Part shown: positions 5,691-62,643 of the stretch, piece after piece | Position numbering within the stretch: the stretch's first letter is position 1 | How the letters are laid out: each line of letters starts with the position of its first letter | From: Pegea sp. RAD2-039 | Taxonomy: Eukaryota; Chordata; Thaliacea; Salpida; Salpidae | Direction: 5' to 3' | Assembly: GCA_034620365.1 (NCBI GenBank) | Contig: JAQGEQ010000192.1 | Span: 4,459,001-4,523,000, forward strand | Length of the DNA stretch: 64,000 nucleotides | Position numbers and translations under genes: made by a program | Notes under the pieces: generated by a model | Seen by the model: only the letters and a program-made list of their open reading frames with translations | Told to the model about the DNA's origin: nothing | Database searches by the model: none

Positions 5691-5699
5691 GGCGTGATC

Positions 5700-5771: not shown

Positions 5772-5867
5772 ACATTTGAACTTTATGAAATTCTTTCAAC
5801 CATTCTATTATATTTTTAGAATATAATTAGAAATCATATAAAATTCTATTGAAATGAAACAAGTTAG

Positions 5868-20142: not shown

Positions 20143-23100
20143 ATGTCAAGCTTAAGTGAGTTAGAAATATACTCTATCATTATTATTTAAACTAGTTGAG
20201 TTTTAAATTATCACTTATATTAATATATTTTATTATTTGTATTTATAATTTCATCATCAATTTTTTGAAAATGAAATATTTTTCATAAAATTATTCAAAA
20301 ATCAAATTTAGAACTGTATTATTTGCTGAAAAACTTTGATAAATATTATTTTGAATTTAAACTAAAATTTAAAAAGTTAGTTTTTATTATTATGTTTAAT
20401 TTTATTTATTAATTTTGAAAATGTAGCTTGTCAAAACTCACAAACTGTTTCAAATATTTAATATATTTAATAATAGATATTAATTTTTGTAAGCTTCATT
20501 AATGAAAATATTTTTTTATTAATCATATTATATAATATATATTAATAATAAGAATCACCTTTGAAATTGTGAATTTTTTTATAAAAAGTTGTTTAAGTTC
20601 ACTTTTTTTTACATCTGATATTTTTTTAATGATAAAAATTGTTGGTTTTTAGAAAAGTAAGCCTTATTCATATTTTTATTCAACCAAATCTTTTATTAAA
20701 AAAATATAATAAAAAAAAGTATTTAATATAAATTTATAAAATTTAAAGATTAATTTTTGATCATTTTTTTAACCTTTTTAATCTTCTTTTTTTATAGTGA
20801 TTTTGTTCCTTATCTTCTTCGCTTCTACAATCTGGGGATTCAAACTTTTAAAAGATTTTCTTCAATCTAGAGCTTCAGAAAATTCACAAGGAGATATCTT
20901 TAAGTAAATGCTGATGACGTCATCATCACTACTTACCACGTGACTTCTAGATATTTGGCTGGTAGATATTTAGAGCGAAAGAAAACCCAAGTTCGGTGGG
21001 GATGGAAAGAACCAGCTGTAGTTGGTTCAACTTTCTCATTTAATCTTCAGGTTTGACATTATTGTAAAGATTTTTAACTTACGATGACGTCTTTGCAGTT
21101 TTTTTTCTGTAACTCCAGTTTATATCCAATTAGTGAAGACGATGACGTCACAGTCATCGTTATGGTTGATGGACGACAGTTAGACGTTGCCAAGGATTTT
21201 ATTATCACAAGTAAGTGATGACTTCTGAATCACCAATTGATGACGTCACTATTCATAAACTGACGACGTCATTGTTTACAGTAGAAGGAACGAAAGAACT
21301 TTGTGTCACTTTTACAGTTCGCATTTCAGGAATTTATCAGATTTCAATTCTTTACAACAATTTTCATATTCCGGAAAGTCCCTTTCAAAAACGATTTCTG
21401 CCAGGTGATGATGACGTCATAAGTTGTGACGACGTTACAGTAACATCTTTTAGGTAAGCTGTGTGCAAAAACAAGTCGAGTTATTCGAAACAATTTTGTG
21501 GAATTAATCGAAACACAAAATCGCGTAATTGCTACGATAGAAGCGCGCGATGAGTTTGAAAATCATTGTGACGTCATCAACGATTTTCAGTTGAAATTGT
21601 TTGAGGTAAAATTTGTTTTTTGCTTCGCGGTTTTAATGAAGTGATTTATAGGCAGATGGTGGCGACTGTAATGTTTGTCACTTGTGGGACGTTTTTGATG
21701 ACGTAGGTGCGAAGCAAGTGACGATGACGTCGTTTGCGTGTGGCTGCTTTAAGATTCAAATTTCACATGAAAATCAATTACTACGAGATGGAAATTTCTT
21801 CGTTATCGTACTTTCAGGTGCTCTTGATGACGTCATCATCTCTCAATAACTTTATAATTTGTATCTAGATGAGGAAAAATTAGAAGTTGATCAAAATGTA
21901 AAAAAGCGTGCTTCAAAACATTTCAAATGTCTTGTGACGTCACCAAGCAAACCAGTCAAGAAAATCAGTTGTTACGTCACAGTTAGAGTAAGTTGATGAC
22001 GTCATCATTCACATAATTTGTTGTCAATTTTTTCCAGCAAATAATATTTCGTGATTTTTATTTCGGAATAATCCCAAAATTTCCAGTTGCTGCATTTCGC
22101 GTTAGTCCAAACACAAAAGTGAGTGATGACGTCATTATAGTCTAGTGATGACGTCATCAAGACTTTACAGATACAGATAAACAACGATGAAGAATTTGAA
22201 ATTACAGATCATATTTGTCATTTAAAAGTAGTTTGTTCCGAGCAAAGTATTCTTCTTGCAACTTTTCAACAAATGCTTCACTTGGCTTCGGGTAAGTATA
22301 TGACGTCATCAGTGAGTGACGTCATCAGTTTATATTGCAGGAGGAGATTCAATTGAAGAAAAAATTGATTTTTTTCGGAACAAACTTTGTCCAAATATTT
22401 CTTCTAAACGTGACGTCATCAAATTAAAAATTGATCGCAACAAAATCTTACAATCAGTTAGTGCTAATGACGTCATCTATTTTAATCTAATGACGTCATC
22501 TATTTTAATCTAATGACGTCATATAGTCGTTTCAAGCGACACGAAATTTTTCGACTTCTGATTGGCGGAAACAGTTTTTCATCGAATTTCGAAATGAAGA
22601 AGGTCTGGATTACGGGGGTGTTAGTCGAGAGTGGTTCGAACTAATTTGTCAAAAATTGTTTCTCGATGTGGATCAAAAGGGATGCGGACTTTTCAAACAT
22701 CTTCAAAATGATTCTCAATCACTTGTAAGTAACATCATGTAATGAGGAAGTGATCTCTTATTGTTTGACATCATCAGACGTTACCATGCTCACTCAGTTA
22801 TGAACCTGGATATAAATTAAAACATTTTGAATTTTGTGGCAAAATTGTTGCAAAAGGTTTATTAGAAAGTTGTTACAATCGACAATATCACGTGACCGCC
22901 CGATTTGCTCGTTCCTTTCTTTCTCAAATCATCGGTCTGCCGGTTTCTTACGCGGTAATCAATGTTATCATGTCACGATTGCTTTTTACTATTTTCTTTG
23001 TAGCATTTTGAAACCGACGACCCTGATCTTTACTCATCTAAAATCGCGTTTTTACGTAATCATGATGACGTCAGAAATCTTCAGTTGACTTTTAGTGAAG

Positions 23101-23796
23101 AAGTTTTTTCAAAGGACGGAAAGTTAGACAAAGTAAGGATCGGGATTTTGAAGATATTTTAGCGAGAATTGAAGACTTAAATTCCTGCAGGTTTACGATT
23201 TAGTTCCGAATGGATCAAAGATAGCAGTAACAAATGACAATCGGTCGGAATATTTAAATTTGTTCGCGAAATTTCGTCTTTGTGATTCGATTAAAGATGA
23301 AGTTGAAGCTTTTCGGAAAGGTCTCTTTTCGTTGGTCAATGAAGAAAATTTACTAATTTTCAATGAAATGGAATTGGAGTTAGTAATGTGTGGTTCAGGG
23401 GAAATATCAGTCGAGCAAATGAAGACATTCTGTGTGATCGATGGAAACTTCGAGCTAATTTGTAATTGGTTCTGGTCAATAATTTCAAGTTTCACGAAAT
23501 CTGAGCTAGCTCAGTTGCTACATTTTACTACTGGTTGTTCTCAGTTACCATTTGGTGGATTCAAACAACTAAATCCTCCTTTTAAAATCTCCTTTCGTTC
23601 TTATCATGCTAATCAACTTCCTACTGCTCATACTTGGTGAGTTTTCGTGTTATTTAATGACGTCATCTTAGTTTTAACGTCTTCTTGTTGCAGTTTTAAT
23701 GAGTTATGTTTACCAAATTACGATTCATGTGAAAGACTTCATAAAATGTTAAAGATCGCAATTACTGAAGGATCTCACGGCTTTGAACTAGTTTGA
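20143..23796 (+). CDS. AREL1: AREL1-type HECT E3 ubiquitin ligase
   Basis: Sixteen exons: 20143-20155, 20798-20903, 20951-21050, 21099-21210, 21282-21404, 21454-21605, 21652-21817, 21869-21987, 22038-22118, 22171-22291, 22341-22456, 22527-22724, 22778-22954, 23004-23132, 23191-23636, 23694-23796; 753 aa against about 820 in vertebrates. An N-terminal membrane segment (residues about 5-20) is followed by the AREL1-specific motif K-V-x-W-x-W-K-x-P (here QVRWGWKEP), a filamin-like region, and a C-terminal HECT domain from about residue 400. The HECT domain has GGxxREWFEL, ELELVMCG and the catalytic end PTAHTCFNELCLPNYDS. Cys720 is the predicted ubiquitin-accepting residue, and its codon is split by the last intron. 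AREL1 is known to ubiquitinate IAP antagonists such as SMAC, opposing apoptosis. Start choice: M-S-S-L from a 13-nt exon is the only nearby ATG that keeps phase. Introns and exons hold 18 copies of TGACGTCA. Confidence 0.9.
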
Positions 23797-23986
23797 AGTC
23801 CGCCAAATTCTAGAAACTTCTTGATCACGGTAATCGACCTATTCAAATTGTGTGCCTTTGTTGGTTTTTTATTCAAGTATTAATAAATTTCAAGTCATTT
23901 GAAATTATGAATTGTTTTTATTTTGAAGAATCAAGTTAAAGAGATTTACAAATTCACAAAATGTGTATTGATGCAATTAATAAAAA

Positions 23987-29941: not shown

Positions 29942-30937
29942 ATGTTGAATAATTACAAATTTGAAGTTTTAAATCGAAGATTTCCATTTTTTGAAAATAA
30001 AAAAATATCCGAACTTTTTGAAAAATGGTTTGTCCAAAAAGTATAAAAGAAGAAAACTTTTTATTTTCCTTTTGATTTCAGGGATTTAAAATTACGATTT
30101 TTCACTTTTTCTTTTAATCCTCATCTCCATCTTCCTTATCAAGACTTCTTACAACAATTATTTGATGACGTCACAGTTCAAACAGCTGTTTCCGCTTGGG
30201 TACCGGCGTTGTCATGGAATTGCGAAGGTGTCACCATCAATCTTTTAATTGATTCTAATTTCATTAATTGTAGACAGAATTATGAAAATAGAATCAATCA
30301 CAACATCAATTACTTCAATGACCTTCTTTGATCGTTTGATGACGTCAGAAGTAGTTAGAGAAAGTGGATCGATTCGAAAATGTTTCCACGAAATGCAAGA
30401 TGGAATCTTGATTTGCGATGAACTACGAAAGGTGATTATGAAGTTATAAGAGTTGTCATGACATCATTTCTACAGATGCTGTTAGTGGAAGATTCAGAAA
30501 ATTTTGAGATGTTTGATGAAGCGGAACGAAATGAAATGATTTTTCAACTTTTTAGAACCTTTGTGATTGGTGGAAGGATTTCACAATATGAAGATCAGAT
30601 CGATGCTTATTTTGATGTCACTAAATCTGTCTACAAAGATCTCGTTTGGTGAGTTTGTTGATATGACGTCATATGACTTGAATGACATCATTTGATTCCA
30701 GTGTACAAAAAGTGCAAGATTCAAATGATCTGAAAGTTATATCGAAAATATTTAAAGTCTCATTTCAGGTTAGCATCTGTTGGTTGTCATGACAATCCAA
30801 TTTTTTATCAATTTTACTTACAGAACAAAAAGACTGAAAATATCTTTCCTCCTGAACATGAACAAAACTTTATTTTTGTCATTATTGATCCTCTAAAGAG
30901 ACATACTCACCTGATGTTGCATCTTTCTGATTTCTGA
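29942..30937 (+). CDS. CFAP300: CFAP300 (cilia and flagella associated protein 300)
   Basis: Six exons: 29942-30027, 30082-30227, 30274-30431, 30476-30648, 30702-30768, 30824-30937; 247 aa (human about 267). Recognised by SMTFFDRL, DSGSI-like VRESGSIRKCF, ICDELRKMLLVEDSENFEMF, GGRISQYED, VTKSVYKDLV and the C-terminal FIFVIIDPLKRHTHLMLH. CFAP300 is a cytoplasmic/ciliary factor needed for dynein arm assembly and transport, so its presence implies motile cilia or flagella. An acceptor (ACTTCTGCAG) lies 19 nt before the ATG. TGACGTCA occurs in exons 2 and 3 (as DDVT and MTS) and in an intron. Confidence 0.9.
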
Positions 30938-35416: not shown

Positions 35417-38409
<2,993 letters not shown>

Positions 38410-45354: not shown

Positions 45355-48300
45355 ATGAAGAAAATTTTCTCTCAACGTTTTAAAATAAGTTCTAGTGATG
45401 ATGACGTCATCATAGCCTCGACACTTCCACCTGATTGTCAATTACCTACTGATGATGTGATGACGTCATCAAAACGTTTTTCGGATTGGAGAAAAAGATT
45501 TTCAGTTTTTCGGATTTTTAGCAAAATGCGAAAACAAAGAAGTAAAAAAAGTCAAATTGATGATGACATCACTTCTTGTGTATCTGATGACGTCATTTGC
45601 GAGTCCTCAATTTCTGAACTATCAAATCGACCTCGTTCATTCGTTTTGACCTCATCAGATATGATGACGTCACATTCTTTTAAATCAAATCAGTCAACAA
45701 TGATGACGTCATTAACTAGAAATTCGGAATTAAACTCTCAAGAATTTTTTCCAAACTGTTCAATTGATATGACGTCATCAAAACAAGATCAGAATCATAT
45801 GACATCATCAAAACAAGATCAGAACCATATGACGTCATCAAAACAAGATCAGAACCATGTGACATCATCAGTTGAAGATCAGAGCCATGTGACGTCATCA
45901 AAGCATAATCAAAGCAATTTGACGTCATTAAAACAATATCAGCACAATGTGACGCCATCAGAAGAAGATCAGAATCATGTGACGCCATCAGAAGAAGATC
46001 AGAGCCATGTGACGTCATCAGAAGAAGATCAGAATCATGTGACGCCATCAGAAGAAGATCAGAATCATTTGACGCCATCAGAAGAAGATCAGAACCATGT
46101 GACCTCATCAGAAGAAGATCAGAATCATGTGACATCATCAGAAGAAGATCAGAATCATGTGACGTCATCAGAAGAAGATCAGAATCATGTGACGTTATCA
46201 AAACAAAATCAGAATCATGTGACATCATCTGAACATGATCAGAATCATACTACGTCACCTGAGCAGGATCAGAATCAAATGACGTCACCTGAACAGGATC
46301 AGAATCATACTACGTCACCTGAGCAGGATCAGAATCAAATGACGTCACCTGAACAGGATCAAGAGCAAATGACATCTTTAGAAGAAGATCAAAAGCTTAC
46401 AGTGTCATCAGAACTAAATCTGACTTCATCAATGGAATCAGTGACGTCAACATCTCGCTGCAAGCAACTTGACACGCCGACAAAACGCGCCATCGCTTTT
46501 CCTGGAGTTGTATTTCGTCGTAAAAGAAAATGTGACGTCACTGCTTCTCAAGAAAACAGCAAAAATAATCGAAGCCATTTAGCTATGTCGCTAAATATGG
46601 ATGAATTACCGACTTATAATATCGGTTGTCATGACGACCATCAGTCCGCAGCTAGACGCGAAATTATTTGGCGTCGTTCAGTTTTAGCTGATAGTCAGTT
46701 AGCTAAAATGCATTTTAGCACTTTTGAAGATACTTCATTCGCGTTATCGCGCTTGGCAGAGCTTGTACGTCATCCTCGTGATGTCACGGGTAGACTTCAG
46801 GTCGTGCCACGTCATCTAATCGAAAAATTACTTCGAATGGATGATGATGATTTTCTTAATTTCTGTATTTCTCAAAATCAGGTTGAATTGGGCAATTTTT
46901 GAAAAAGGCCATTTTGTTAATTTTAACAAAAATCTTTTACAGGAACCAACTTCAAAGAGAACAAAATCGTTAAAAAAAGTCGCTCAAATGATGAGTCCTC
47001 AAATCTCACCACGTGACAAAATTCAGGTGACGATGACCTCATTTTTAGAGTTTCAACTTTTTCCTGTTTCATTTCACCATAAGCTTAGTGAGATGACGTC
47101 ATCAGTAGCACTATAACGTGCTATGCTTGTGACGTCATTAGTTGAGAGAAATAGTTAAAAGTTTTTCATTTAAAAAATGTAAATAAAAAAAGTTGAAAGA
47201 AATTTTGTCTGAAACCTCTATGAAGGCAGTTTTGAAATTTGAAAACAGTTTTTCAAGTTTTTTGTTTGTAATTAAAAATTTGTTTTTATTTTTTTATCAC
47301 AAATCTGTTTTTATTTGTTTTTTCATCAGTTTTTTTTTTAAACTATTTAAATCTTTTTAACTCATTAAATTTACTTGCAGTGTTGGTGATGACGTCATCA
47401 CGTGATGACATCATCAGCAAGTAACTGCTTCCGCTTAAAACTTATTTTGAAAAGCTTTTTACTTGAAGCAGATTTAGTTGAAGTTTAGAAAAGTTTTTTT
47501 CATTTTTACTTTTTTGTCTTTTGATGTCTTCTCCGCCAGCTAGTCACGTGACAACTCCAGGTCACGTGGCCGCCGGAATTCGCTTTTTTTCGATGGTATG
47601 ACGTCGACAGCAGTGATGCCAATCTTATTCATTTTATTATAGCGTTCATCGAGTTTTAAAGAATCAAATTCTTCTCGAAGAAGTATCACCGTGAAAGCCT
47701 ATCAGCCTCCAGGTCAAAGGTCAAACCCGCCTCGCCAACATCAGAGGCGGTTGTGGTGCGATCGTTTCTCGACTTCCAATTTATCTGCTGACGTCATAAG
47801 GCGTCAAGAAGCGATTTACGAATTGTATCTCGGTGAAAAGGATCTTATTCAAGATTTAAGGATGGCTAAGCAGGTGATCAAGATCTTTCATAGAAGTGTT
47901 TGATATTATCAACGTATTCTATATAAATGATGACGTCATCAGACTTACCGCGATTCGATGTTGACGTTGAAGTTAGTTTCTGATAAAGAATCTGAGATCA
48001 TTTTCGGAGGTTTAGAATCTTTGTTACCACCTCACGTGACTATGGTAACTAGAATCGAAGCCGAACGCGATAGCGCTGGATGTACTAATCAATTGGGTCC
48101 AGCACTTCTCGAATGGGTGAGTATGACGTCATCAACTTGTAATCTTCACTTATCATGACGTCATCAGCTGCCGACTTTGGATATGTACAGTGATTACTGC
48201 ATCAAGCAAATGAAAGCTAAAAAGACACTCGATGAGTTGATTAAGCGTCATGCTTCCGTCCGCGATTTTCTGCAGCGATGTATCGCGTCGCCCTTTTCTC

Positions 48301-49604
48301 GAAAACTCGATCTTTCATCGTACATCGATCTCCCAAGATCGCGACTCTTTAAATATCCTCTTCTACTCCGAAACATTCTTCGAAGCACTCCGAATCTTCA
48401 TCCTGATCTTGCTGATCTTCATCAAGCGGTTGGTAAATGACGCCGTCGCCTCATCAATTCATCAAATCTTCTTATTACAGTTGACACGAATTGAAGCAGC
48501 AATCCGAGAGATTGATCTTCGTCAAGCTCAAAGTCATCTTAAAGATTTAATGTCAAGAATTGAATTCATTGATGAAAAAAATCAAAAAATTTCAGAAATT
48601 GAAAAAAGTTCTTCAGTTTTGTTGTCAGGACCTCTCAAATCAGCAAAGGGAACTGTACGTCATTAAATGATGACGTCATCGCTTATTATAACGTCATTGT
48701 TGCTACAGAAGCTCACCGCGTATCTACTAGATTGCGTTTTCCTTCTAACACGTCCTGTTACGCGGGACAACCAATCACGTGATCAGATTTATCGACGTCC
48801 GTTCCCATTACGTCATTTACATGTCGAATTCGAGGATGTGACGTCATCAAGAAGCGGTTCTTTTCGTGGATCATTACGTAATAGTGAAAAAGGTTTGTGA
48901 CTTCATCACTTCGATAGTCACTGATAACTTTTCATCTCGCAGTGAAACATTCCTTTCGACTTAGCTGTGCTGAAGATGTCAAAGCTTCGATTATTTTAAT
49001 CGCCAATGACGAACACGATCGAAAGCAATGGTTAAACGCGATTGAAGATGCGATTCAGAAGTTGAACGAAGATAATGTCACCACACAGATGACGTCATCA
49101 TTAAATCATTTGAAGGTGATGACGTCACCTGTTAGCAAGCCAACAGCTACGACGATTCAACGCAAGTTAGGAATAAGTAGTTCAAAAAATTTACCGATTA
49201 CATCATCTATATCACTGCCAGTGACGTCACATGGTGATGACGTCACTTCTTCAATACGACGAAGTCGTAGTCTGACTTCATCACCGAATCCTCGTGACGT
49301 CACAATTCGTGTCAAAACTCCAAAAGATCTTCAAAGAAGATCAACTTCAGTCTGTGTGACATCATCAAATAAACGATACTTAAAAACTGATGACGTCACT
49401 GCAACTGATGACATCACTGCAACTGATGAGGTCACTACAGCAGCAACTGATAACGTCACTGCAACAGCAAGTAATGACGTCACTACATCAGCAACTGATG
49501 ACGTCACTGCAACAGCAATTAATGACGTCACTACATCAGCAACTGATGAAGTAGTGGCTGAAACGATTAAAGAAATTTTAACAAAAATTTCTGCTGATTC
49601 TTAA
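45355..49604 (+). CDS. NET1/ARHGEF3-type Rho guanine nucleotide exchange factor with long repetitive N-terminus
   Basis: Eight exons: 45355-46881, 46943-47026, 47643-47873, 47943-48116, 48168-48428, 48481-48654, 48709-48892, 48943-49604; 1098 aa. Residues 1-537 are family-specific and disordered, including 10-aa repeats at about 139-342 (type VTSSEEDQNH). The DH (RhoGEF) domain begins near residue 589 (RRQEAIYELYLGEKDLIQDL) and contains DFLQRCIASPFSRKLDL and DLPRSRLFKYPLLLRNILR, which are near-identical to NET1/ARHGEF3. A PH domain follows (KLTAYLLDCVFLLTRPVT to RKQWLNAIEDAI). The tail is rich in Thr, Ala and Asp (DDVTATDDITATDE...) because it is built from TGACGTCACTGC units. The family activates RhoA and shuttles between nucleus and cytoplasm. 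The vertebrate PDZ-binding C-terminus of NET1 is absent. Total length is nearly twice that of vertebrate NET1, and the excess is repeat-derived. Confidence 0.92.
45766..46390 (+). repeat. 30-bp coding minisatellite containing TGACGTCATCA
   Basis: About 20 units of 30 bp inside exon 1 of the RhoGEF. A typical unit reads TGACGTCATCAGAAGAAGAT followed by CAGAATCATG, giving VTSSEEDQNH; early units give MTSSKQDQNH. The palindrome is the most conserved part, and variants are mainly ATC/GCC/TTA single-base changes (TGACATCA, TGACGCCA). The antisense strand is also open across the array, a by-product of the repeat. Confidence 0.95.
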
Positions 49605-51267
49605 CAGACTGCGTCATCACTGTTTTTCGGCTACTCAACTGCCAGCTTGATTTTTTTACTCTGGTGACGTTATCAAGTCTTCTGCATGTTTGCTTTCATC
49701 CTAAAAATTTATTTTTTTATTTTGATACTTTTTCTTGAAGCTTTTCAATCCAAAGCGTGTCTAGAAGTGATGACGTTATCGTCATTTTTGAGTTCTTAAT
49801 ATAATCAGCGAAAAATATAAAACGTTTATACAAAAGTTAGAGTTTTGCTTCATAATGACGTCATTCAGATCTGAGATAATCAAACCTTATTCAATTTTTA
49901 ACTTAAACCTTTTTTTCTTAAATGCTGACTTCATCTGATAAAGTCACAGTAAATTAGACTAAAATTTTTTGACAAAAATTTTCTAAAATTTTCCTCTAAA
50001 CCAATTTGAAAATTTCTTTCATTTTCCAGCATTCAGATTCCTTTTTCAATTGTTTTGAAAACTTGAATAAACTTTAAATAATTTTGAAGAAGCCTTAGGT
50101 GATGAGACGTCACTGCCAAACAGTTGACGTGAAGTCTTGAGGTTATTAAGTTACTAAATCAGAATATTAATTTAAATAAAATCATTAATAAAAAATAATT
50201 GTTAACGTAAAAGTTACAACGAAGTACTTAGATAAGAATGAGACCCAGTTAATTTGAAAATTTAAATAATTTTATATATTATGAAATATATCTTAAAGTC
50301 TAAACCTAAAGTTTTTCTTAAATTGTATAAAAGTTATCTACCTTTTAGATTTGTATGTAAAATAAAAATGGAACAAGGACCTTTCCATTTAAAATTTTAA
50401 CTTTTTGATTTATTGCCTAACTATAATGAAATTTTATAATATTTTCCATACTGATTTTATGAATTACTTAAATTTTAGAGCATCTAAGTTTATGAGTACG
50501 CCATTATATTCATTTATCAGGTTATACAATTTTATTTTTTTTCTTTAAGAATTTATTATAAATAAAAACTTTATGTTTATACTTTCTGAATTTTTATTTA
50601 AAACCTAGATTAAAGTTCGACCAATTTGTTGATAAATAATAATAAGTAAGATTTAAAGGTATTTCAATTTTATTGCAGAAAGAACTTTGAAACCATAAGT
50701 AAAATATCTTTTAAATTAAAGTTTACCAAATATTTAAATTAAACTTATTTTTATGAATGCCAAAGATCGGTAAAAATACTTTTTAAAAATAATATTTAAA
50801 TTAAAATTTGAAAGTGTTAAAAAAGTTTCAATTTTGGATATTATTTTTAGTTTAATTTTAAATGTTTACTTTGAAAATAAACAATAAAACTTCGATTTTA
50901 TTTTAAAATAAAACAAATAAAGAAACTGAAGTCAACAGTTTATTTATGTTTAAAAGTATTTTTAATTTTCTATATATTTTTGATTTTCACTTCTACAATA
51001 ATTGAAAACATTTTATTGAATATTAATAATAATTTATACTTTCAAAAAAGCTATAATTTTTTTATAAATTAATTACATTGATGGAAAAAAATTTCAACAG
51101 CAGTTTCACTTTAAAGTTCTGAAATTGATTTTGTCTAAAAATTAGATAAGTAAAAAATAGTTTTACAAAAATCAAGTGATCTACTTATGAATATTATGAA
51201 ATAAGTTTATTATATTAATTTTAATGATTTATATTTTCAGAATATCTATAATTTAATTATTTACTTA
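49605..51267. other. Intergenic, RhoGEF to EED
   Basis: A few TGACGTCA/TGACGTTA sites occur before 50.1 kb, and then plain A+T-rich sequence. A TTATATTTTCAG acceptor ends 27 nt before the EED start codon. Confidence 0.5.
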
Positions 51268-53049
51268 ATGGAAGTTAATTCAGAAAGCTTAAATTCTGCT
51301 GATGGAATTTCTACTTTGGTGGAAATTGATCCCCAAACTTCAACTCCCATCAAACATTTTGCTTTGAACTCTAATATGACTAGTTCAAGATCAAAAAGAG
51401 GAAAAGGAAAAAGCAAAATGGCAAAAAAAGTTTCTCCTAAAGGAGGTTTTAAGCTGACAAACTCAATAAAAGTAATGTCCTTTTTTATCTTTCTTACTCT
51501 TTTATTCTTATCAATTCCCAGTCTTCATCATTTCCTGACCTTACTCACATTCTGATTCTTATCACTTCTTGTTCTTAATTGTCTTCTTATCTTGTTTGCT
51601 TCTTCATCAGGAAGATCATGGCAAACCTCTGTTTGGTGTTGCCTTCAATTATCATCTACCTGCAGATCAACCTCAGATGTTTGCAGCTGTCGGCAGTAAT
51701 CGAATCACTGTCTACGAATGTCGTCAATCGGGCTATATGAAAGCTATTCAAGCTTATGTCGACTCTGACGTTAGTACTTGATCATGATGTCATCACTGTT
51801 GACGTCATTACTGTCCATCGATTGCAGAGTGAAGAGACGTTCTATTCTTGCGCTTGGACAGTCGATACCACCACCCAACACCCTCTACTGGCTTTCGCCG
51901 GTGCTCGAGGACTCATTCGCTTACTCAACATTTTCACACGTGATTGCGTCAAGGTATCATGACGTCATCAATAAATGGATGATAGTGATTAGCTGATGTC
52001 GCAGCATTACATCAGTCACGGGAACGCTGTCAATGAACTCAAGTTTCATCCCACTCGACCTCATATCTTGCTGAGTGCTTCGAAAGATCATTCGTTGAGA
52101 GTGTGGAACGTGAAGACGGATGTACTAGTTTGTTTGTTTGCTGGAGTAGAAGGGCATCGTGATGAAGTCTTAAGTTGTGTTAGTGATCCTTATCTTTCTT
52201 CTGTTCTTTGTGCAATACTGAAACATTTTTGCAGGATTTTGATATTTGTGGAACTAAAATTATCAGTTGTGGAATGGATCACTCGTTGAAGGTGTGGAGG
52301 TTCGATACTGAAGAATTGCTTCTGGCACTGAAATCGTCTGATGTTTATGTGGGTGATTCTCCAGAGTAAGTTTGAAGCAAGTTAAAGTCAGAATCAAGAG
52401 ATTGGACTCGATTTGTACTTCAGAGCTTTTCCAACTTTACATTTTCATTGTCCTTACTTCTCTACACGAGATATTCATCGCAACTACGTCGATTGTGCGA
52501 GATGGTTTGGTGACTACATCCTCTCTAAGGTCTGCTCTTAACCTCAACCTTTATCATCTTCAAATATTTTTATTTCTAGTCTTGCGAGAACTCTATTGTA
52601 TGTTGGAAGCCGGGTTCTGTTAACAGTGACATCGATGATTTGAAACCCAAGGAGACTAACTTGACAGTACTCAGTCGACTTGAGTTTAATCACTGTGACA
52701 TCTGGTACATGAGATTTGCTATCGACTTTCATCACAAAGTGAGCAACTAATGATGGAATTAGTTTGATAAACTCATTCAAATTTGTTCTCAAGTATTTGG
52801 CGGTTGGTAACTTGTTTGGGAAAACATTTTTATGGGAATTAAATCAGTTAGATCCTCATAAATCCAAGTAAGTTGCTGAAACTTGTGCTGCTTGTTCAAC
52901 TATTTTCAATTTGTTGCAGATATTCTATACTTTCAACTGCAAGATGTTCAGCTACTATTAGACAAACAGCTTTCTCAAAAGATAGTTCTACTTTGATTTG
53001 TGTCTGTGATGATGCTACTATATGGAGATGGGACTCAAACAGCAAATAG
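51268..53049 (+). CDS. EED: EED, Polycomb repressive complex 2 WD40 subunit
   Basis: Nine exons: 51268-51471, 51611-51769, 51828-51953, 52005-52178, 52235-52365, 52424-52529, 52580-52738, 52794-52867, 52920-53049; 420 aa (human 441). After a basic N-terminus ([15 protein letters not shown]) there is a seven-bladed WD40 propeller with [96 protein letters not shown] and [10 protein letters not shown]. The aromatic-cage positions known to read trimethyl-lysine (the Phe of LFGV, Tyr of FYSCAW, Trp-Tyr of IWYMRF) are all kept. In PRC2, EED holds EZH2 and SUZ12 together and binds H3K27me3 to spread the mark. The short introns contain a few TGACGTCA sites. Confidence 0.96.
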
Positions 53050-53673: not shown

Positions 53674-53871
53674 ATGACGTCATCTGAAAAACATCTCGTT
53701 CCACTTGAGTTCACACGACAAGAAACAGTTTCATCAAAACACGTGACCTCATCACGTGTTGTTGACCTTGTGACGTCAGCAAAAAAGAAGGAAGATTTTT
53801 TACAAAATATTATCGACGATATTTACATGTCCATAGATTGGACGCTTAGCGGTCGTGACGTCAGCTTTTGA
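53674..53871 (+). CDS. Orphan 65-aa protein beginning MTSS
   Basis: Single-exon frame, ATG to TGA. The start codon is inside the palindrome (ATGACGTCATC), so the protein begins Met-Thr-Ser-Ser; two more copies are translated as VTSA and RDVS. The C-terminal half (KKKEDFLQNIIDDIYMSIDW) looks like an amphipathic acidic helix. I do not recognise a family. Base composition is higher in G+C than the surrounding intergenic DNA and similar to nearby genes. It could be an exon of a larger gene or a chance frame over a motif cluster. Confidence 0.4.
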   Translation: MTSSEKHLVPLEFTRQETVSSKHVTSSRVVDLVTSAKKKEDFLQNIIDDIYMSIDWTLSGRDVSF

Positions 53872-55185
53872 CGTTATCAACCGTACGTATGAGTCGAGCA
53901 AAAGTTTGAGAAATCAATAAATAAAGCAACAACAACTACAGTTTTAGTTTGAAGCGAAGATATCACGTGTATGACGTCATCATTTTGATCTTGTCACGTG
54001 GTTACGTCATCACTTCACTTATGAAACTCATAAAAATATTTTGAAAATGATTCTCTTTTTTTAAGTTTTTTTATTTTAACAAAATTTACAGAAAACAAAT
54101 TTGAAACACTGAAAAGCGCTAATAAAAGTGATTAAGAATATATTAAATCATCATCGCATAATAAACCATTTTCGAGAAGATTTTCATCAACAACAAAATG
54201 TTTTTGCTTTTTGCTGTAAAAGAAAATTTGTGAAATTATCTAAAAAAAAAGATTTAGGAAATTTCACTTTTCAAATCAACAACTTTCAGCTAAAAAGACG
54301 TCATCAGTGACATCATTAATTACGTCATCAACATCAACTAACTGAAAGGCGAGTCTGACCAACAATTAAATTTTCTTTCCTTTTTATTTCAGATTTCTTT
54401 CTTTTTTTCACATCTCTTCCAAACCTTCAAAACATATCATCACGTGACCTCCATTCACCGCGTGTGACGTCATAGACGCTCGACTTGTTGTTGTTTTTCA
54501 ACGGCTAGAAGTTTTGAGGGTTGTTTTTCACATTGACCTCATTTAACTGACGAAAAGCAAACCTTTCCTGGTTTGAACTTTTCTACTTCCGACACAAAAC
54601 TCAACAAATTTCTGCTTTTTTTGAAATTTTAATAAAAATTTTTTAATTTGTTTTTTTCTAAATTTTTCAGTTATTTTAAATTTTTTAATTTTCAACACTT
54701 TTTAACACTTTTAACATTTTTATTTTAACTTTTTCTACTTGTTTTCATAAATTGTCAATAATAACTTTCAACCATCTTTACTGTTAATACGTTCAATACC
54801 TTTTGAACTTGTTTGTTTTCTACCTATTTTTATCTTTATACATTTTCTTCTTGTTTTTCTACATTTTCTACTTGTTTTTCTACATTTTCTATTTATTTTT
54901 CAACAGTTTCTTCTTGTTTTTCTACATTTTCTTCTTGTTTTTCTACATCTTCTACTTGTGTTTTTATATTAAAAAAAACATTTTCTTGTTGTTTACATAA
55001 ACTTCAGACTTATATTGATATTTTTCTGTTTGTTTTATACATTGTTTGTTAATTTTAAGCTTCATTTATTTGTTTTTATTCTTTTTCAGTTTATTTGCAT
55101 CTTCTTGTTTCTATCTTTTTATTGCCTTATACTTGTTTGTAGACATTTTCTAATCGCTTTTATAGATTTTCTGCTTTTTACTTTT
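53872..55185. other. Intergenic with motif cluster and T-rich tract
   Basis: 53940-54520 has several TGACGTCA and CACGTG sites (for example TATCACGTGTATGACGTCAT near 53961 and GTCACGTGG near 53995). 54600-55180 is very T-rich. Open frames there (poly Phe/Tyr/Leu) are composition artefacts. Confidence 0.5.
54836..54960. repeat. 21-bp T-rich tandem repeat
   Basis: About six units of the type TTTTCTACATTTTCTACTTG plus one T, with small variants (CTTCTTG, CAACAGTTT). Confidence 0.75.
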
Positions 55186-56835
55186 CTATTTCTTTCCTGT
55201 CTTTTTATACAATTTAAAGGATACAATCGAATCAAGAGTCATTGTTCCTAAAGATCCAATCAGCCAAGGAGTTTGTCGAATCAAAAATTCTCGTCGAGAA
55301 ATCTTATTTGGAGGATCTTGGAGTAGAATCTACAAAAAAGAATTTTTAAGGATTATAGCATCATTAATGACGTCATTACTGAAGCGCCATAAAGTGAATT
55401 TCCTAAAGCTGCGAGAAGGAACAATGAGTAACAGACTCCGTCGGTTTTCTTGCGCCGAAACTGAAAGCAAATATATCTGATGACGTCATCATTGCTTACT
55501 AGAAATCAGTTGATCATCATCAGCTCACGTTTTTGATGATCTGAGGAATTCTTGACGACAAATAAAGAATTGCAGAAAGACAGCCGATGACGTAACCCGC
55601 GATCAGCTGCGGCGCCTATGACATCATTCAAATAAATCTTTAGTTAAATCTCCTAAGTCATTCTAACCCATTTTGTAAATTCAACTTCTAATAATCTTCG
55701 ACTTCTAAAAACTTCTGTTTGTTTGTTGTCATGGAAACCGAGTTTTGGGAGTGACAACAAAGCCGTAAATACACACGTGAGAACGATTGTTCCACGTCGA
55801 TGGGTTCGTGGTGACCAGGGTTGGTTAGCAACTCCTCGAAACGTCTCTATTACACGCGATGATGACGTCACTAATTATGACGTCACTTTTGGCGTATTAT
55901 TATGACTACCTCTACCCGGTTGCTCTTGGAGACGATGTAGATACAAGCAATAGAAAAATTGTGAGATGATGATGACGTCCATTGCAACGTAGTAACAGGA
56001 AGTGTAAAGCTGAACCGGAAACTGTTTGATGAGAACACATCCGATCTATAAACAGTGAGGTCTTAAGAAGCTTTAACAGCGTCAAAGATTTCCAGTGGAA
56101 GTTACCAGGTTACAAGAGTCCCCACATAACCAAAGCAACAATGAATATATGGACCAAGCTTCATGAACCTTTTTTTGTCGAAAGTTTGAGATTACTTGCC
56201 TGAAGAAAAACAATTTTTAAATCTGTGAAATGCAAAGTTAAAATGAAAGAGTAAACTCTCTGCTGTCGAGCACCTTAAACCACTAAACTTATTTGTCAAT
56301 ACGACAAGTTTTTGTGGCTCGATTTTGTTGGCCGAGGAGTTTTTACATTTAAGGTGCTACATTTTCGACTTAAGAAGATTGTTATTTATTTATTGTAGAA
56401 TTTCGTTCATTAAGATTACAACTAAGAAATTATCTAGATTGTGAAAACTTCTTAAAAATTGTAAAAAAAATGATTTATAACTAGCTGAACTAGAATCGCT
56501 GTCAAAAATATAAAAGAAATAGAGAAATATACAATTTATATTCAAATATAAACATATGATAAAAACAAAACAATTCAATAAACAAAAAACTTTAAAAAAC
56601 ATAAAATAAAAAGTTGATAAACAAATGGTTTAACAGAAAATAATAAATATTTGTAAATCGAAACTCACGGAAAACCAGCAGACATCCAACAACAGATTGA
56701 AACTAGTCCAAGACATAAACCAAGCTCTGACTTAAAGTTATAAACACACTGATTGAAAGTGTTGTAGATCCATAAAACAGGATTTGGTTGAGAACATGAA
56801 GTGTTTACTGCAAGATGGTAAGGAAAACCGTACAT
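55186..56835 (-). CDS. SLC66A1: SLC66A1-like lysosomal PQ-loop amino acid transporter
   Basis: Seven exons: 56835-56669, 56199-56106, 56045-55916, 55846-55668, 55615-55529, 55460-55380, 55329-55186; 293 aa (human 291). Two PQ-loops are present: SAGFPQVISNFRQKKVHEAWS and SSRIPQIIKNFRRKKTDGVCYS. The first is followed by LLLWLCGDSCNL and the second by LFLLAALGNSLYG and TPWLIGSLGTMTLDSIVSF. Seven membrane helices are expected. The family exports cationic amino acids from lysosomes (and the cysteine-lysine disulfide formed during cysteamine therapy). The acidic dileucine sorting signal at the vertebrate C-terminus is absent; the protein ends in KKTGKK. The ATG at 56835 was preferred over an upstream TTG in frame. 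Confidence 0.92.
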
Positions 56836-58230
56836 ATTGAAAAGTGAAATAAAAAGTAAAAAGTTTAACAAGTTGCTTATATTAGGTTTGTCAACATGTT
56901 CATTTTGATGAAGTTGCAGAAATTAAATCATCAAAGAAGTATCCACATCAAAGCATTTTAAAGAAAGTAGTAAACAATTTATAACTTAGTTACAGCATTA
57001 AAAGTTTGAACTTTGAATCTTAAATTGTTAGCAAGATTTTGAACTGAACAAAATTAAAGTTTGATTGAAAATGTTGTCACTTCAGAAACAATTATCAATT
57101 CTTAAACTTGATTAAAGTTAAAAAAGCTGCAAGTGAGTTGCAATAAAAAGTTCTTAATAAATATTTATCAACATTTTAAGATTATATTTATTTAATCAGA
57201 TAAAAGTCTTTTAAAAACTTTTCAAGTTAGAAATTAATTCAGATTGGAAATATATTTTTGATAATCTTTATTTATGTTTTAATTAAATTGGCTTTCAAAC
57301 TCTCAAACAGCTCTTCCTTAACTCAAGTTTTCCTGAAATCTTTCCATTTCTTTTTATACAGCTCTGACTTCATCTTTTAATTATTTTGATTTTCTAATTC
57401 TTCATCCCTTTGTACCGGAGTCATACCTATTTATTTTGATATCTTTTTATCCCTGTTCCTAAAGATCCAAACATGACTTCTTCCAATAATTCTGATCTAC
57501 AAACTTTCTAACTAACTTGTGAAGAAGTTATTTTTGTTAGAACTGATATTTATCATCTCTTCTTTCAAATTTCTAAAGATAGCTTCATCTTTCAATTACT
57601 ATGGTTTTCAATTTCTTTAAAAACTTGTCCCAAAATTTTATCTGCTCATTCTGATATCTTCCCGTCTCTGCATTTGAAAATCAAGCGTAACTCTTTCTTT
57701 TAATTATGGTTTATTCCAAAATCATTTCTTCTCCAGTTATTTTGATCTATAAACTTGTTTGGAGTTACATTTCTAGTATAAGAATATATTTCTAAATTTA
57801 TCTAATTTTTATGAAAACAATTTCTAAAGTTTGTTTCAAATATTTAATTACAGAATATTTCTATTTATTTTCAAACTTTTTTCAAAGCAGTTTTTAACCA
57901 AATTAGTTTAGTTACATTTCAAATGAGTTTAAACCTCACAACAAACTTTGTGGCTTTGGTTTCTCAGAAATTGGCTTTTAAATTATCATTCACTTTATTC
58001 AGAATTATATTTTTGAGAACTTTGCCAATTAAATATTTTTTTCTACCACATTTTTGATTTATTAAAATTTTTTCCACAATTTTTTTCTTATTTTTTTATC
58101 AGCATGCTTTTTTTCACAAAATTTTAGAAATAATTTGAGTTGACGACAAAAGTTCAATTTGTTATTAAAAAATTTGAATTTGATAAAGCATCAGCATCGA
58201 GATGACGTCACAAGGATCGTTGTGACGTCA
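56836..58230. other. Intergenic between SLC66A1 5' end and FHF 3' end
   Basis: A+T-rich; only T-rich low-complexity stretches. No exon seen and no TGACGTCA until 58202. Confidence 0.55.
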
Positions 58231-61202
58231 TCAATTTGAGCTTCGACTCCTCGCCACTCCTGAAGAAGCTGATCGGCTGTTTGGAACAATACTGAGATCA
58301 TTCAGACTTGGCTCTTTGAAGAGATGGACTGCAAAGATATGTCACGTGAGATGATGACATAATGACGTCACATACCTTCGAGCGGACATGGAATGAAGTG
58401 ACAATAAGCTTTATGCTTCTTGGCTCGGGAACCTTTCACAGGGATTCCATCTCGTGAAAAGCCGAGGTTCCAGGCCCGACCACTCTGAAGCTGTTTATAA
58501 AGTGTCGAGGTGTAGACGACATAGTAGTTTTCGAATACTGACTCTTTGAATTTACATTCTGATGTGAAAGTCTCCTAAAAATTGATGAAGATTATATGAT
58601 AATGATGGAAAGATTAAGATCAGATGATAGAGATCAAAAGGCATAGATTAGATGATGAAGATCAGAAGATGAAAATCAGATGAAAAAGATAAGAAGATGA
58701 AGATTAAATTGAAAGATTAAAAGATGAGAATTAGTTGAAAAACATCAGAAAATTAAGATTAAGAAATAAAGATTAGAAAATGAGGATGATGAGGATCTAA
58801 CAACCAAGACTCACTGTAGCATACACCTCTCCTTCACAATTCATCGCGATGTACTGAGAAGTATTTTGATGTTGGATGCAGACTATCCGAAGTCCAACCG
58901 GGATCAGATTGAATATATGTCCTTCAATTGGCGGATCTCCCTTGGGTAAACCTCTGACTTCTCCACCAAAAACTCCCAAATAGTATCCTTGTCGAGAGTA
59001 CAAACGAGTTCGCACCCCCTTCAACTGTGATTCTGCAGGAGAAAAACAAGATCAGAAGAAGATCAGAAGAAGATCAGAAGAAGATCAGAAGAAGATCAGA
59101 AGAAGATCAGAAGAAGATCAGAAGAAAATCAGAAGAAGATCAGAAGAAGATCAGAAGAAGATCAGAAGAAGATCAGAAGAAGATCAGAAGAAGATCAGAA
59201 GAAGATCAGAAGAAGATCAGAAGAAGATCAGAAGAAGATCAGAAGAAGATCAGAAGAAGATCAGAAGAAGATCAGAAGAAGATCAGAAGAAGATCAGAAG
59301 AAGATCAGAAGAAGATCAGAAGAAGATCAGAAGAAGATTAGAAGAAGATCAGAAGAAGATCAGAAGAAGATCAGAAGAAGATCAGAAGAAGATCAGAAGA
59401 AGATCAGAAGAAGATCAGAAAAAGATCAGAAGAAAATAAAAATAAAATGAAATTATAGAATCACTTTTAGGTTAAATATTATTTGACAAACTTTAAAAAA
59501 TCTAAACAGAACAGGAAAGTATTTTAATTTATTAAATCAATTCAGGTCATAAATTTCTTTAAAATTTAAGCTATAACAATAAAAAGATAAATGAAAGGGA
59601 AACCAATTGATCATAAATAGTAGAATTGTTTAAAAAACAGAAAAAAGCTCATTTATAAAAAGCAGCTGCAAAGTTTTATACAAAAATTTCATTTCAATTT
59701 AATTAGTGAAAAAATGCAAAATATTTGACAAATCTTCAAAGATTTTAATTAAAGTTTTTAAAGTAAAATTTTGAAGCTAAAAACTTAGTTCAACTTTCCC
59801 TCTCATTTAAAGACTTTTAACAATAATTTTCAGACCTGAACCCCGAAATTTCTCTACTTCCATTTCTTTGTAAGAAAACTTTGATACTAAAAGTTTCATT
59901 TTTAGGGCAAATTTTTACTGAAACTTTTGAAATTCTGCCAAAAACTTTTCGAAATACAATTTCAACTTAAATTATTTATAATAATCTTTCTACTATCTTC
60001 ACAACAACCATCTTAAACTAACCTTTTGTGTTTCTACTAGGTATTGGAGCTTTCAATTTTTCCATAGTCACCAACACCAAGCAATAAGCTAGTCAAGATA
60101 GAAAAACTTTCAAACATTTACAAACTCATCAATAATTCATTTGCAGCTTAATGACGTCATCAGACTGTCGCTAGTTTAGTCAAGAAAATTTTCTAAATTA
60201 TTAATTTCTATCTACTGATAATTGTTCTGCACAATTTGGATTTTTATCTTTCTGCGCTCACACTCAATTTGTCGCGAAGTGATGATGTCATCAGAGCTGT
60301 GACGAAAATTTTATAGTATTTTGAAAGTCTTGAAATTTTGATTTTTAAGAAAAAAGAAAACTTTATTGAATAAAGTTCAAAATTTCAGAAAAAAATCCAT
60401 AAAAATCTGTTTTTTTTTTAACTCCATCTAGCGAAAAAATAAACAAACACTCATTACACATTTGCAAGTACCTTTGCTGCTTTTTGAGAAAGTTCTTTGC
60501 TTCATTTGTCGAATTAAAAAGTTAAAATATCTAAAAATTTAAAAGTTATAAAATCAAAATTTTAAGAGCCCTAAAAAAATCATAAAATCTTTCAGAAATT
60601 TAATATCAAAAATGTTTCAAGCAATTAGCTTCAAAACTTCTTCAACTAAATGTTAAATTAACTGATCTTCAGCATATACAGATATCATGACGTCATTACC
60701 CGTTCCAGTTCACTGATTCATTTGATCTAAGTTTTACATCAAATTTTCAGATCTTATGTTTTCAGTTTTCAAATCAATCAAAAAATAACTTTTTGTTTTT
60801 TCATCGCCTCAGGCTTCGTTCAAAAAGTTAAAAAACAAAAATCTTCAAAAATTTCATAAATAAATTTCTCCAAAATTTCAAAAGAGAAAAATTAAAGTCT
60901 TCAAAATATGTTATGACATCATCAAAAAATTAAATTACAAAAAAACTTGTATTTGTAATCTAAGCCGGCAGAAGACAGCAAAGAGCAAATGATACAAGTT
61001 TGAAAAATCCCAAAAATAAAAGTGACAAAATTCCGATTTTGAAAAATTACAAAAATTTAGATTTTTCAAATGAAAAACACTGAAACTCACCAATTGTTGG
61101 AGCTCTTAGTTTCAAACCTTTTCCACACGGACAACACTTCAATGGCATTCCGGAACAATTTGGAAAATGAATCAAATAGAAGTTCAATAAGCCATAAGTC
61201 AT
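58231..61202 (-). CDS. FGF homologous factor (FHF/FGF11-14 class), three candidate 5' exons
   Basis: Common exons: 59032-58815, 58574-58376, 58328-58231. Alternative first exons, all ending in phase 1: A 61202-61091 (208 aa total; contains [16 protein letters not shown]), C 60505-60472 (182 aa; [11 protein letters not shown]), B 60065-60023 (185 aa; [14 protein letters not shown]). The beta-trefoil core reads [97 protein letters not shown] and KEPSLNDL. FHFs have no secretion signal; they stay in the cell and bind voltage-gated sodium channel tails, and vertebrate FHFs also use alternative 5' exons. None of the 5' exons here encodes an obvious signal peptide, though exon A begins with a moderately hydrophobic stretch. 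The stop codon TGA overlaps the extended palindrome (TGATGACGTCA). Confidence 0.9.
58600..58795. repeat. Degenerate GATGAAGATCAGA-type repeat in FHF intron
   Basis: Imperfect 12-24 bp repeats (AGATGAAGATCAGAAGATGA and relatives) in the intron between 58574 and 58815, related to the 11-bp array at 59042. Confidence 0.6.
59042..59435. repeat. 11-bp minisatellite next to a 3' splice site
   Basis: About 35 near-perfect copies of GATCAGAAGAA on the plus strand. On the transcribed (minus) strand this is TTCTTCTGATC, a pyrimidine-rich array that ends just before the acceptor of the FHF core exon at 59032. Because 11 is not a multiple of three, the array shows open frames ([10 protein letters not shown]...) on the plus strand; these are not a gene. 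Confidence 0.95.
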
Positions 61203-61364: not shown

Positions 61365-61686
61365 CTTTAATGAAATTTTGGATTTTTGAAAAGCTCTTTT
61401 GGATGAATTATTAATTTTATGTTTTTATTTTTGTTGGTTTCAGAAATTCTCAAAGAAAATGAATAAAAGTGACAAAAATTAAAAAATCTGAAAAAAAATA
61501 AACATTATTAAATTTAAAATAAAATTTGAAAGATAATAGAAACAAAATCTAAGTTTTTAAAAATAAAAAATACATTTTTAAATGTTAAAATAACTAATTT
61601 GGAAAAATTATGTAAAACACTAACTTGAATAAAACTTCTATTAGTAGCTAATGCTACTAAAAGCGATGACGTCACGATCTAAAATA

Positions 61687-62047
61687 TTAATATCGAAGCA
61701 GACAAATTGGCGGTTTCACAAGTTGAGTTTGATCAATGAAAAACTGTTCCAAAGCCAAACTTGCTTCTTCACTAATTACAAACCTATTCGTGACGTCACC
61801 AGCATATGTCATTGACGTCATCGGTTGTTCGATGCTTTTCAGGTGGTATTGTAGTGACGTAGTCAGCGGGAAAAAGATCAGATTTAACAGTGAAGGAAGG
61901 AAGATCAATTTTAGAAATGAAAAATTTATAAAGAAACGAAAAAGAAGTAAAATTGAATCAATGAAATTGAAAGCTCGTCGAATTCAGTCGAGCGTGAAAA
62001 GTGAAATCTCTAATTATCAACTTCAAACATTTTTCTTTTCTTATTGA
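61687..62047. other. Ambiguous coding-like segment, both strands
   Basis: The minus strand holds a frame (61908-61687) ending SEEASLALEQFFIDQTQLVK...LLRY; the plus strand holds a 103-codon basic frame (61736-62047) with KKRKRSKIE. The segment is less A+T-rich than its surroundings and carries two TGACGTCA. I cannot tell which strand, if either, is coding, and neither matches a family I know. Confidence 0.25.
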
Positions 62048-62562
62048 GTTATGTTGACAACAAAATGACGTCACATAAACAGCTGATGACGTCACATAGA
62101 CACCTGATGACGTAGTACGGACTGCTGATGACGACATATCGACAACTTGTAACGTCATGTTGTCAGTGAGCTGAAAATTTTGTGAATTACAAAATAAATA
62201 AAAAATTGTAGAAAACTGAAATTTGTTGAAAACTCAAAAAAGGTTTCTGAAACGTCTTTCTGCTCTTTCCGACAACTTCAAATGCTTCTTCTCGTCTCGT
62301 TGTTGACACAAAGCTTTTGTCACAAATTGTGACGTCATAAAAAGAAAAAAAGCTGAAAATAAACAAAAAGCCTCAAATCTCGAAATGGTGATCATCCTCA
62401 AAATCTTCAGCTATTTTTATTAAAGTTGAAAATCAATAAGATCGCAATGATGACGTCATCAGCTATTCGGACAGCCAGCTATCAGATTAGAGAAAATCCG
62501 GAAGTTTTATAAAAGGGGAATTACCGGATTTGATTGCCGAGAAAAATCTAAATTTGTTTAAA

Positions 62563-62643
62563 ATGGAGACATATGTAATGACGTCATCACAGCGTTTCCG
62601 TTATCGTTTGACAGAATTAAAACTCGCAAAGAATAAAATTTAG
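62563..62643 (+). CDS. 26-codon small ORF containing MTSS
   Basis: ATG to TAG, METYVMTSSQRFRYRLTELK plus six residues. It contains a translated TGACGTCATCA. It is very short and may be chance or the first exon of a gene outside the window. Confidence 0.2.
   Translation: METYVMTSSQRFRYRLTELKLAKNKI

Follow-up and report, generated by a model that had tools for sequence, protein, structure and literature searches.

The window, the stretch of 64,000 nucleotides that was analysed, contains several protein-coding genes that are occupied by copies of the palindromic octamer TGACGTCA (Table 1). The AREL1 model, whose assignment is supported by homologs matching at 37-38%, carries 13 copies in its introns (750 bp) and five in its exons (2,228 bp), an intron density about eight times that of the exons, and many of its introns hold one copy or none. 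Our recount of this gene gave exactly the 18 copies that had been counted by hand in the earlier note (at 20,915-23,658). A search of the genome for another haplotype or a paralog of AREL1, in which gains and losses of the word might be followed, recovered the window and a single match of 45 bp that spans two TGACGTCA copies. In DYRK1, five of the 15 copies fall in the coding tail, where the protein sequence yields to the word and lineage-specific residues are found, and the others lie in introns or in the 5′ part of the gene; a decayed array with units of about 35 bp is also recognizable by eye at about 37,690-38,300. The block at the RhoGEF-domain gene extends over about 6 kb, and both copies in EED are intronic, with none in the coding sequence. 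The matches obtained for EED and DYRK1 assign the DNA to a tunicate. As AREL1 and EED illustrate, the dispersed copies lie in transcribed sequence, mostly in introns.

Table 1. Genes and groups of TGACGTCA copies in the window.
Feature	Position	Strand	Details
AREL1 (HECT ubiquitin ligase) coding model	20904..23797	+	15 exons, 14 introns of 46-71 nt; N-terminus incomplete
Group of 3 TGACGTCA	30166..30671		
DYRK1 kinase gene	35417..38850	-	15 TGACGTCA at 35,579-38,446
Block of 43 TGACGTCA	43600..49900	+	RhoGEF-domain gene (NET1/ARHGEF3-like by eye) and upstream part
30-bp coding tandem array	about 45,770-46,380	+	Unit includes TGACGTCA; several units are one-base variants
EED (Polycomb, WD40) gene	51268..53046	+	9 exons; 2 TGACGTCA (51,800; 51,960)
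Block of 9 TGACGTCA	53675..55885		
Group of 3 TGACGTCA	58203..58370		
Block of 8 TGACGTCA	61667..62586		

Altogether, TGACGTCA occurs 106 times in the window, where dinucleotide frequencies predict 0.58 copies; the runner-up among palindromic octamers, AAATATTT, occurs 42 times, and TGATGACGTCATCA 12 times. The 105.7-Mb genome contains 27,792 copies, 29-64 times as many as palindromes of the same composition (ACTGCAGT, 969; GTACGTAC, 644; CATGCATG, 437). The claim that the word is repeated far beyond chance is therefore upheld, a composition-based model fails across the genome, and the over-representation is confirmed as genuine and genome-wide. Also enriched, less strongly, is a second word, TCACGTGA, and TGATGACGTCATCA is found 1,972 times in the whole genome, its reverse not once. 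The earlier note had described a single saturated genome sector, and 104 of the 106 window copies do lie within 20,900-62,600; the distribution is instead one of many gene-scale blocks in a subset of genes, with a density of 1,656 per Mb in the window against a genome mean of 263 per Mb, and with copies in four of 12 motif-blind 10-kb stretches (14 sites in 120 kb in total). These blocks follow GC- and CpG-rich gene stretches. Both GC and CpG are raised in motif-rich tiles, and when the CpG observed/expected ratio was computed with the TGACGTCA sites masked, the word was present in none of the 60 tiles below 0.3 and in 22 of the 37 above 1.2.

The flanks were studied in 214 sites (the window plus 21 loci), 172 of which kept clean flanks after array masking. 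Copies within tandem arrays are thus a minority, and a minisatellite unit as the main carrier of the word was rejected on this count. CTACGTCA, considered as a second favoured form, was likewise set aside, most of its copies among those listed coming from two minisatellites (L012 and L022). The varied flanks described previously are a property of most sites, but not of the minority in arrays such as the 30-bp coding array, and the view that the copies do not derive from a longer element stands, as the flanks fail to align beyond three bases. Within those three bases the word has a preferred form: 145 of the 172 array-masked sites read RTGACGTCAY, a purine before the core and a pyrimidine after it, which is the flank preference known for bZIP proteins (the string ATGACGTCAT was not found in the one eLife paper searched for it), and the flanks of the left and right half-sites are independent of each other (p=0.70). 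Decayed copies are few. The excess of one-mismatch words amounts to 0.34 per perfect copy, genome-wide and in tiles alike, while steady neutral decay would give about 8/7, so decayed copies are too few for a neutral steady state.

In coding sequence the preference is visible in the choice of codons. The dipeptide DV is encoded by GACGTC in 26 of 42 cases in the coding pieces, against 3.6 expected, and synonymous codons are skewed towards TGACGTCA in both open frames, while reversed-order controls are flat. The force therefore acts on the DNA and not on the encoded protein. Among 89 sites, neither the flanks nor C-to-T decay revealed any strand asymmetry; the preference for the word is at the DNA level and strand-symmetric. 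The codon skew, together with the lineage-specific residues, fits a gain by nucleotide substitution.

TGACGTCA is the classic CRE, the binding site of ATF/CREB bZIP proteins. The reading we favour, with a probability of roughly 0.4, is that the word (in its full form TGRTGACGTCAYCA) is a putative site for a bZIP dimer of the ATF/CREB class, and that its scattered, redundant copies serve as gene-body elements in some of the tunicate's genes. The preferred flanks and the independence of the two half-sites would be expected if each half is read by one partner of a dimer. The 8-bp spacing is favoured, while the 7-bp AP-1 site TGASTCA is not enriched, either genome-wide (11,142 vs 9,494 for the reversed word) or in motif-rich tiles (1 in 29.6 kb vs 16 in 163 kb). 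The synonymous skew, the strand symmetry, the higher intron than exon density in AREL1, the scarcity of decayed copies, and the tracking of CpG observed/expected are all consistent with such an element, and candidate binding proteins are encoded in the genome: JUN, a CREB-like bZIP (identified by eye), and 12 bZIP_1 matches. Each copy would add slightly to expression, or to an open, unmethylated state of the gene body. Copies would be gained mainly via point substitution, where introns or tolerant codons permit, and they may be retained by selection that is very weak but acts in a large population; with copies arising in this way and being retained, occupied genes would drift to saturation. 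A precedent for additive copies comes from an intron motif of Arabidopsis, for which the available part of the report describes expression rising linearly to at least 20 copies, and activity from coding sequence too (PMC6760150). Several observations fit this reading poorly. The density, at nearly fifty sites per 10 kb, greatly exceeds what known regulation requires, and it is odd that protein sequence yields in the DYRK1 tail if selection is so weak. The other enriched word, TCACGTGA, requires a second factor, and a number of unrelated genes of the window contain few copies or none.

A possible but more doubtful explanation is a mutational or repair drive like that proposed for HIP1 of cyanobacteria, in which a sequence-specific step perfects and protects near-miss sites with no benefit to the host. 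Candidates for this step are methylation, mismatch repair, and biased conversion, and a protein bound in the germline may direct it. The low number of decayed copies suggests upkeep or renewal of this kind, and in unrelated genes the word has entered not only introns and disordered coding tails but even domains. HIP1 is itself a palindromic octamer of like kind, which has been modelled via methylation-dependent mismatch repair in the available part of one study (PMC4390886). However, no enzyme of this specificity was found among the PF00145 matches that were read: the search gave 11 matches, and the copies read are DNMT1-like in one case and Dnmt2-like in the other (by eye). The gene-restricted blocks and the independent half-site flanks also suit a bound dimer better. 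A form that joins the two ideas, which we regard as unlikely, is a self-reinforcing word, where a CRE-binding protein that occupies gene bodies in the germline would tilt mutation or repair in favour of the site it binds, so that this site would colonise introns and rewrite codons in the occupied genes.

It is improbable that the word marks meiotic recombination hotspots like M26 of fission yeast (ATGACGT, bound by Atf1-Pcr1), where biased conversion would increase the GC and CpG around them and give rise to minisatellites. The word with A at position -1 does include ATGACGT, motif-rich tiles are higher in GC and CpG, and arrays include the word, but established theory expects hotspot motifs to be lost via conversion, not gained. 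In the available text on fission-yeast ade6, moreover, the full CRE is unbound by Atf1-Pcr1 and is not a hotspot (PMC9775316). Little probability is also left to passive survival, by which CpG words would persist in unmethylated gene stretches, with tandem duplication multiplying some. Sites do follow CpG observed/expected, and ACGTCATC lies inside several minisatellites, yet same-composition controls mostly refute this explanation: GTACGTAC, a CpG palindrome, reaches only 644 copies against 27,792, the reversed-order codon controls are flat, and a trinucleotide model falls far short of the word's frequency in motif-rich tiles with arrays masked, because the half-words alone exceed that model after all perfect copies are masked. 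An RNA-level element, whether a pre-mRNA hairpin or a splicing signal, is very improbable. Of the six stretches that were folded, three, all of them AREL1 introns holding two or three perfect copies, do reach z < -3, but the remaining three gave only z = -0.8 to -1.7, many introns have a single copy or none, and the strand symmetry of flanks and C-to-T decay speaks against RNA, so the RNA hairpin proposed as a unit in the earlier note is not supported. A search of the genome for the SL1 RNA family gave no match, as did its controls, and a search for COX1 gave none either. Remnants or excision footprints of transposable elements are least credible: copy number is high and close pairs occur, but no conserved flank was found beyond three bases on either side of TGACGTCA, which is therefore not a transposon remnant, and six close pairs on one contig (C1) have six different spacers of 3-4 bases.

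The original interpretation is partly supported. Composition-matched counts and alignable flanks both fail to explain the copies, and either a functional site under selection or a very short spreading word may be right; the single sector and the RNA hairpin do not hold. A word resembling a transcription-factor site bends codon choice across unrelated genes, and protein sequence too in the one tail examined. This also means that gene-body motif counts cannot be taken for enhancers unless controls of the same composition and of codon order accompany them. The compact tunicate genome, related to those of Ciona and Clavelina, allows a direct test of whether mutational drive, or weak selection spread over thousands of redundant sites, can have this effect. 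A self-reinforcing word, if true, would give eukaryotes an equivalent of HIP1 and would add a new kind of force to those that shape genomes. A literature search on the 14-mer found nothing, viral contigs contained no double motif, and titles and abstract openings among the matches listed held no description of octamer saturation of introns or gene bodies in invertebrates or tunicates.

Among known systems, the Arabidopsis intron-mediated enhancement motif TTNGATYTG is also a short word dispersed in transcribed sequence, with additive copies and activity from exons, but it lacks palindromic symmetry, its activity is limited to about 1 kb from where transcription starts, and no comparable saturation is described in the available text (PMC6760150). 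The M26 hotspot, according to the part of the source available, is a CRE-like heptamer inside a gene that is read by an ATF/CREB dimer; it differs in consisting of single sites with a recombination function, and the perfect CRE is inactive there (PMC9775316). The ctenophore loop-anchor motif of CTEP1/2 contains CpG, lies in promoters and intronic enhancers, and is bound when unmethylated; its proteins are zinc-finger proteins, the motif is GC-rich, and gene-body saturation is not described in the available portion of the paper (PMC12221973). HIP1 (GCGATCGC) shares with TGACGTCA a palindromic octamer with CpG, massive excess, the lack of a longer repeat, and upkeep despite coding constraint, and, as in a HIP word, the genome-wide count of the palindromic octamer greatly exceeds the counts of words with the same composition (27,792 vs 437-969). 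In contrast to HIP1, the present word occurs in an animal, in gene-scale blocks and with flanks like those of a bZIP-dimer site, and no cognate octamer methyltransferase was found among the PF00145 copies read. With the CRE of ATF/CREB bZIP proteins it has in common an identical core, the purine and pyrimidine flanks, and the exclusion of AP-1 spacing. However, known CREs act mainly as one or a few promoter copies, while here a single gene body has dozens of them, in its exons as well as its introns.

The CRE-like palindromic octamer TGACGTCA occurs 106 times in the window (64 kb, 71% A+T), where dinucleotide frequencies predict 0.58 copies, and 104 of these lie within positions 20,900-62,600. 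Across the genome (105.7 Mb, 387 contigs) there are 27,792 copies, compared with 969, 644 and 437 for the same-composition palindromes ACTGCAGT, GTACGTAC and CATGCATG; the excess far over chance claimed in the earlier note thus holds genome-wide and is not a product of composition. The 14-mer TGATGACGTCATCA is present in 1,972 copies and its reversed form in none. Site density in the window, 1,656 per Mb, exceeds the genome-wide mean of 263 about sixfold. The idea of a single saturated genome sector is not borne out, as 14 sites altogether were found in 4 of 12 motif-blind 10-kb stretches; two stretches selected by the 14-mer hold 31 and 19 sites, and those on either side of the window 0 and 5. 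At motif-rich density (47 per 10 kb), the full set of copies would occupy ~5.9 Mb, or about 6% of the genome. Full-text searches, whose coverage leaves out preprints and most subscription papers, gave no paper for the 14-mer, and among the papers listed for the octamer no title or opening of an abstract describes such a phenomenon.

Sites form gene-scale blocks, and the borders of the blocks are sharp. In our model of AREL1, a HECT ubiquitin ligase, intron sequence (14 introns of 46-71 nt, 750 bp in total) contains 13 sites and exon sequence (2,228 bp) 5, giving exactly the 18 copies counted earlier by hand, while the 10,263-20,914 interval just before it has none. EED (WD40) has two, both intronic, with none in its coding sequence. 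The kinase gene DYRK1, the RhoGEF-domain gene and, at other loci, genes with BTB, SAM and ankyrin, alpha-galactosidase, SH2 and Ig domains carry or adjoin sites (names beyond domain names were assigned by eye); the ABC transporter and alpha/beta hydrolase genes of the window, among others, have few or none. At sampled locus L007, 30 sites at 4,103-6,603 are followed by none up to 10,000. Judged by the homology of EED and DYRK1, this is a tunicate genome: the hand-spliced EED protein is 81% identical to its best-matching sequence, 71% to Ciona intestinalis, 66% to Phallusia and up to 60% to vertebrates, and DYRK1 is 69% identical to Phallusia and Ciona over 99% of its length, 86% to Clavelina over 74% and 62% to Styela over 99%. 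The best matches of AREL1 are vertebrate (37-38%). Separately, window 58958-59450 is a purine-rich tandem array with three open forward frames that read as amino-acid repeats, and it lacks TGACGTCA.

Given the amino acids, synonymous codons are skewed towards the word, and the force is on the DNA. Our coding sample covers 12.5 kb in 16 gene pieces, mostly from motif-rich genes, those other than AREL1 and EED being unspliced open frames that possibly include some intron sequence. Its 57 sites are read as TS (33) or DV (24), never in the stop-containing frame. Codon use within these pieces predicts that 3.6 of the 42 DV pairs would be written GACGTC and 8.2 of the 79 TS pairs ACGTCA; the observed numbers are 26 and 38. 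With the array-bearing piece dropped, the counts are 23/37 and 24/54. The reversed codon order is flat, at 1/13 for VD (1.1 expected) and 1/34 for ST (3.5 expected). Protein sequence yields to the word too, since the aligned positions of Phallusia, Ciona, Clavelina and Styela lack the five motif-encoded TS pairs of the poorly conserved DYRK1 tail. Among the five exonic AREL1 sites, two fall where some homologs have DV or NDV; the remaining three coincide with different residues or sit in a variable loop. This giving way of protein sequence, together with sheer copy number, speaks for the main rival explanation, a repair drive like that proposed for HIP1, the highly iterated palindrome of cyanobacteria. 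In a set of 89 sites that have a known gene strand and lie outside marked coding intervals, the flanks have no strand asymmetry (p=0.28) and C-to-T neighbours are balanced (8 and 7). When six stretches were put through RNA folding, z fell below -3 for the three AREL1 introns that carry two or three perfect copies and was -0.8 to -1.7 for the rest.

The site consensus is TGRTGACGTCAYCA, the 8-base word with up to three weaker bases on each side, and aligned sites have no conservation past these bases, which rejects a longer transposon with alignable flanks and agrees with the earlier observation that the word is not part of a longer element. No two of six close pairs on contig C1 share a spacer. 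With tandem arrays masked, RTGACGTCAY fits 145 of 172 sites, and 79 of the 172 are ATGACGTCAT. Independent variation at positions -1 and +8 (A/G table 97, 50, 27, 11; Fisher p=0.70) indicates that each half is read separately, as by a dimer. AP-1 sites (TGASTCA) are not enriched, with 11,142 genome-wide vs 9,494 reversed, and counts of 1 in the motif-rich tiles (29.6 kb) and 16 in the motif-free tiles (163 kb), a pattern that favours CRE-type dimers over a general effect of TGAC half-sites. The genome encodes JUN, a CREB-like bZIP (by eye) and 12 bZIP_1 matches, a count made in this genome only. A second, weaker over-represented palindrome, TCACGTGA (4,614 vs 237 reversed, and vs 644 for GTACGTAC), could be a bHLH-zipper site; it and CACGTG are found in the same tiles as TGACGTCA (CACGTG 6.8 per 10 kb in motif-rich vs 0.55 in motif-free tiles), in the window mainly at 37,000-39,000, 47,000-48,900 and 53,700-54,500. 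The word also recurs inside minisatellite arrays of unrelated units (see table). At the start of contig C1, L005:1-60 and ~8,066 have identical sequence in opposite orientation, as in terminal inverted repeats.

The genome has 37,125 one-mismatch places where the reversed control has 27,699; the excess, ~9,400, amounts to 0.34 per perfect copy, a rough figure as this control is without CpG; array-masked motif-rich tiles also give (58-10.7)/139 = 0.34. Constant gain with neutral decay would yield about 8/7 by our estimate, so copies appear to be kept, renewed or recent. Counted within the window only, the ratio is higher, in part because of arrays, and TGACATCA is the commonest form (21).

Site number rises with CpG o/e (observed/expected; sites masked; Spearman 0.38) and with GC (0.44) across 448 tiles of 500 bp drawn from the window and L005-L020, a set in which L007 and L008 had been chosen for the motif. 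The fraction of tiles with a site is 0/60 at CpG o/e <0.3, 11/129 at 0.3-0.6, 17/143 at 0.6-0.9, 23/79 at 0.9-1.2 and 22/37 at >1.2. The CpG effect persists at GC 0.30-0.40; below 0.25 there are almost no sites regardless of CpG, and above 0.40 the CpG classes are nearly alike (1.69 vs 1.38 sites per tile). In 1-kb tiles with sites unmasked, GC and CpG o/e are 0.346 and 1.21 when motif-rich vs 0.269 and 0.62 when motif-free. A split into methylated and unmethylated gene sets, as described in Ciona (PMC3827831), would explain the CpG contrast. L014:4500-6500 is a 2-kb stretch where GC is 0.47-0.50, against ~30% for the genome, and CpG is practically absent (o/e 0.00-0.04). Seven cytosine-methyltransferase matches lie in stop-free open frames of 832-873 aa, possibly retrocopies or mobile-element cargo.

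Locations of minisatellites and cytosine-methyltransferase match regions
Feature	Location	Remark
Minisatellite, 33 bp	L012:1287-1881	contains ACGTCA(T/C)C
Minisatellite, 12 bp	L022:2354-3013	contains ACGTCA(T/C)C
Minisatellite, 30 bp	window 45770-46380	contains ACGTCA(T/C)C
Cytosine-methyltransferase match region	C57:819728-826344	stop-free open frames
Cytosine-methyltransferase match region (L032)	C249:1740707-1742050	stop-free open frames; the one match inspected is DNMT1-like
Cytosine-methyltransferase match region	C32:10146-38173	stop-free open frames
Cytosine-methyltransferase match region	C52:9209-10639	stop-free open frames

We favour a dispersed gene-body element, a candidate site for an ATF/CREB-type dimer, whose copies would pile up by weak additive selection; the gene-scale confinement of sites and their dimer-like flanks point this way. 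HIP1, which is tied to methyltransferases, is the closest known phenomenon to the word excess (PMC4390886). For an additive dispersed gene-body element, the precedent is an Arabidopsis intron motif, whose effect is additive to at least 20 copies and which is active from coding sequence too (PMC6760150).
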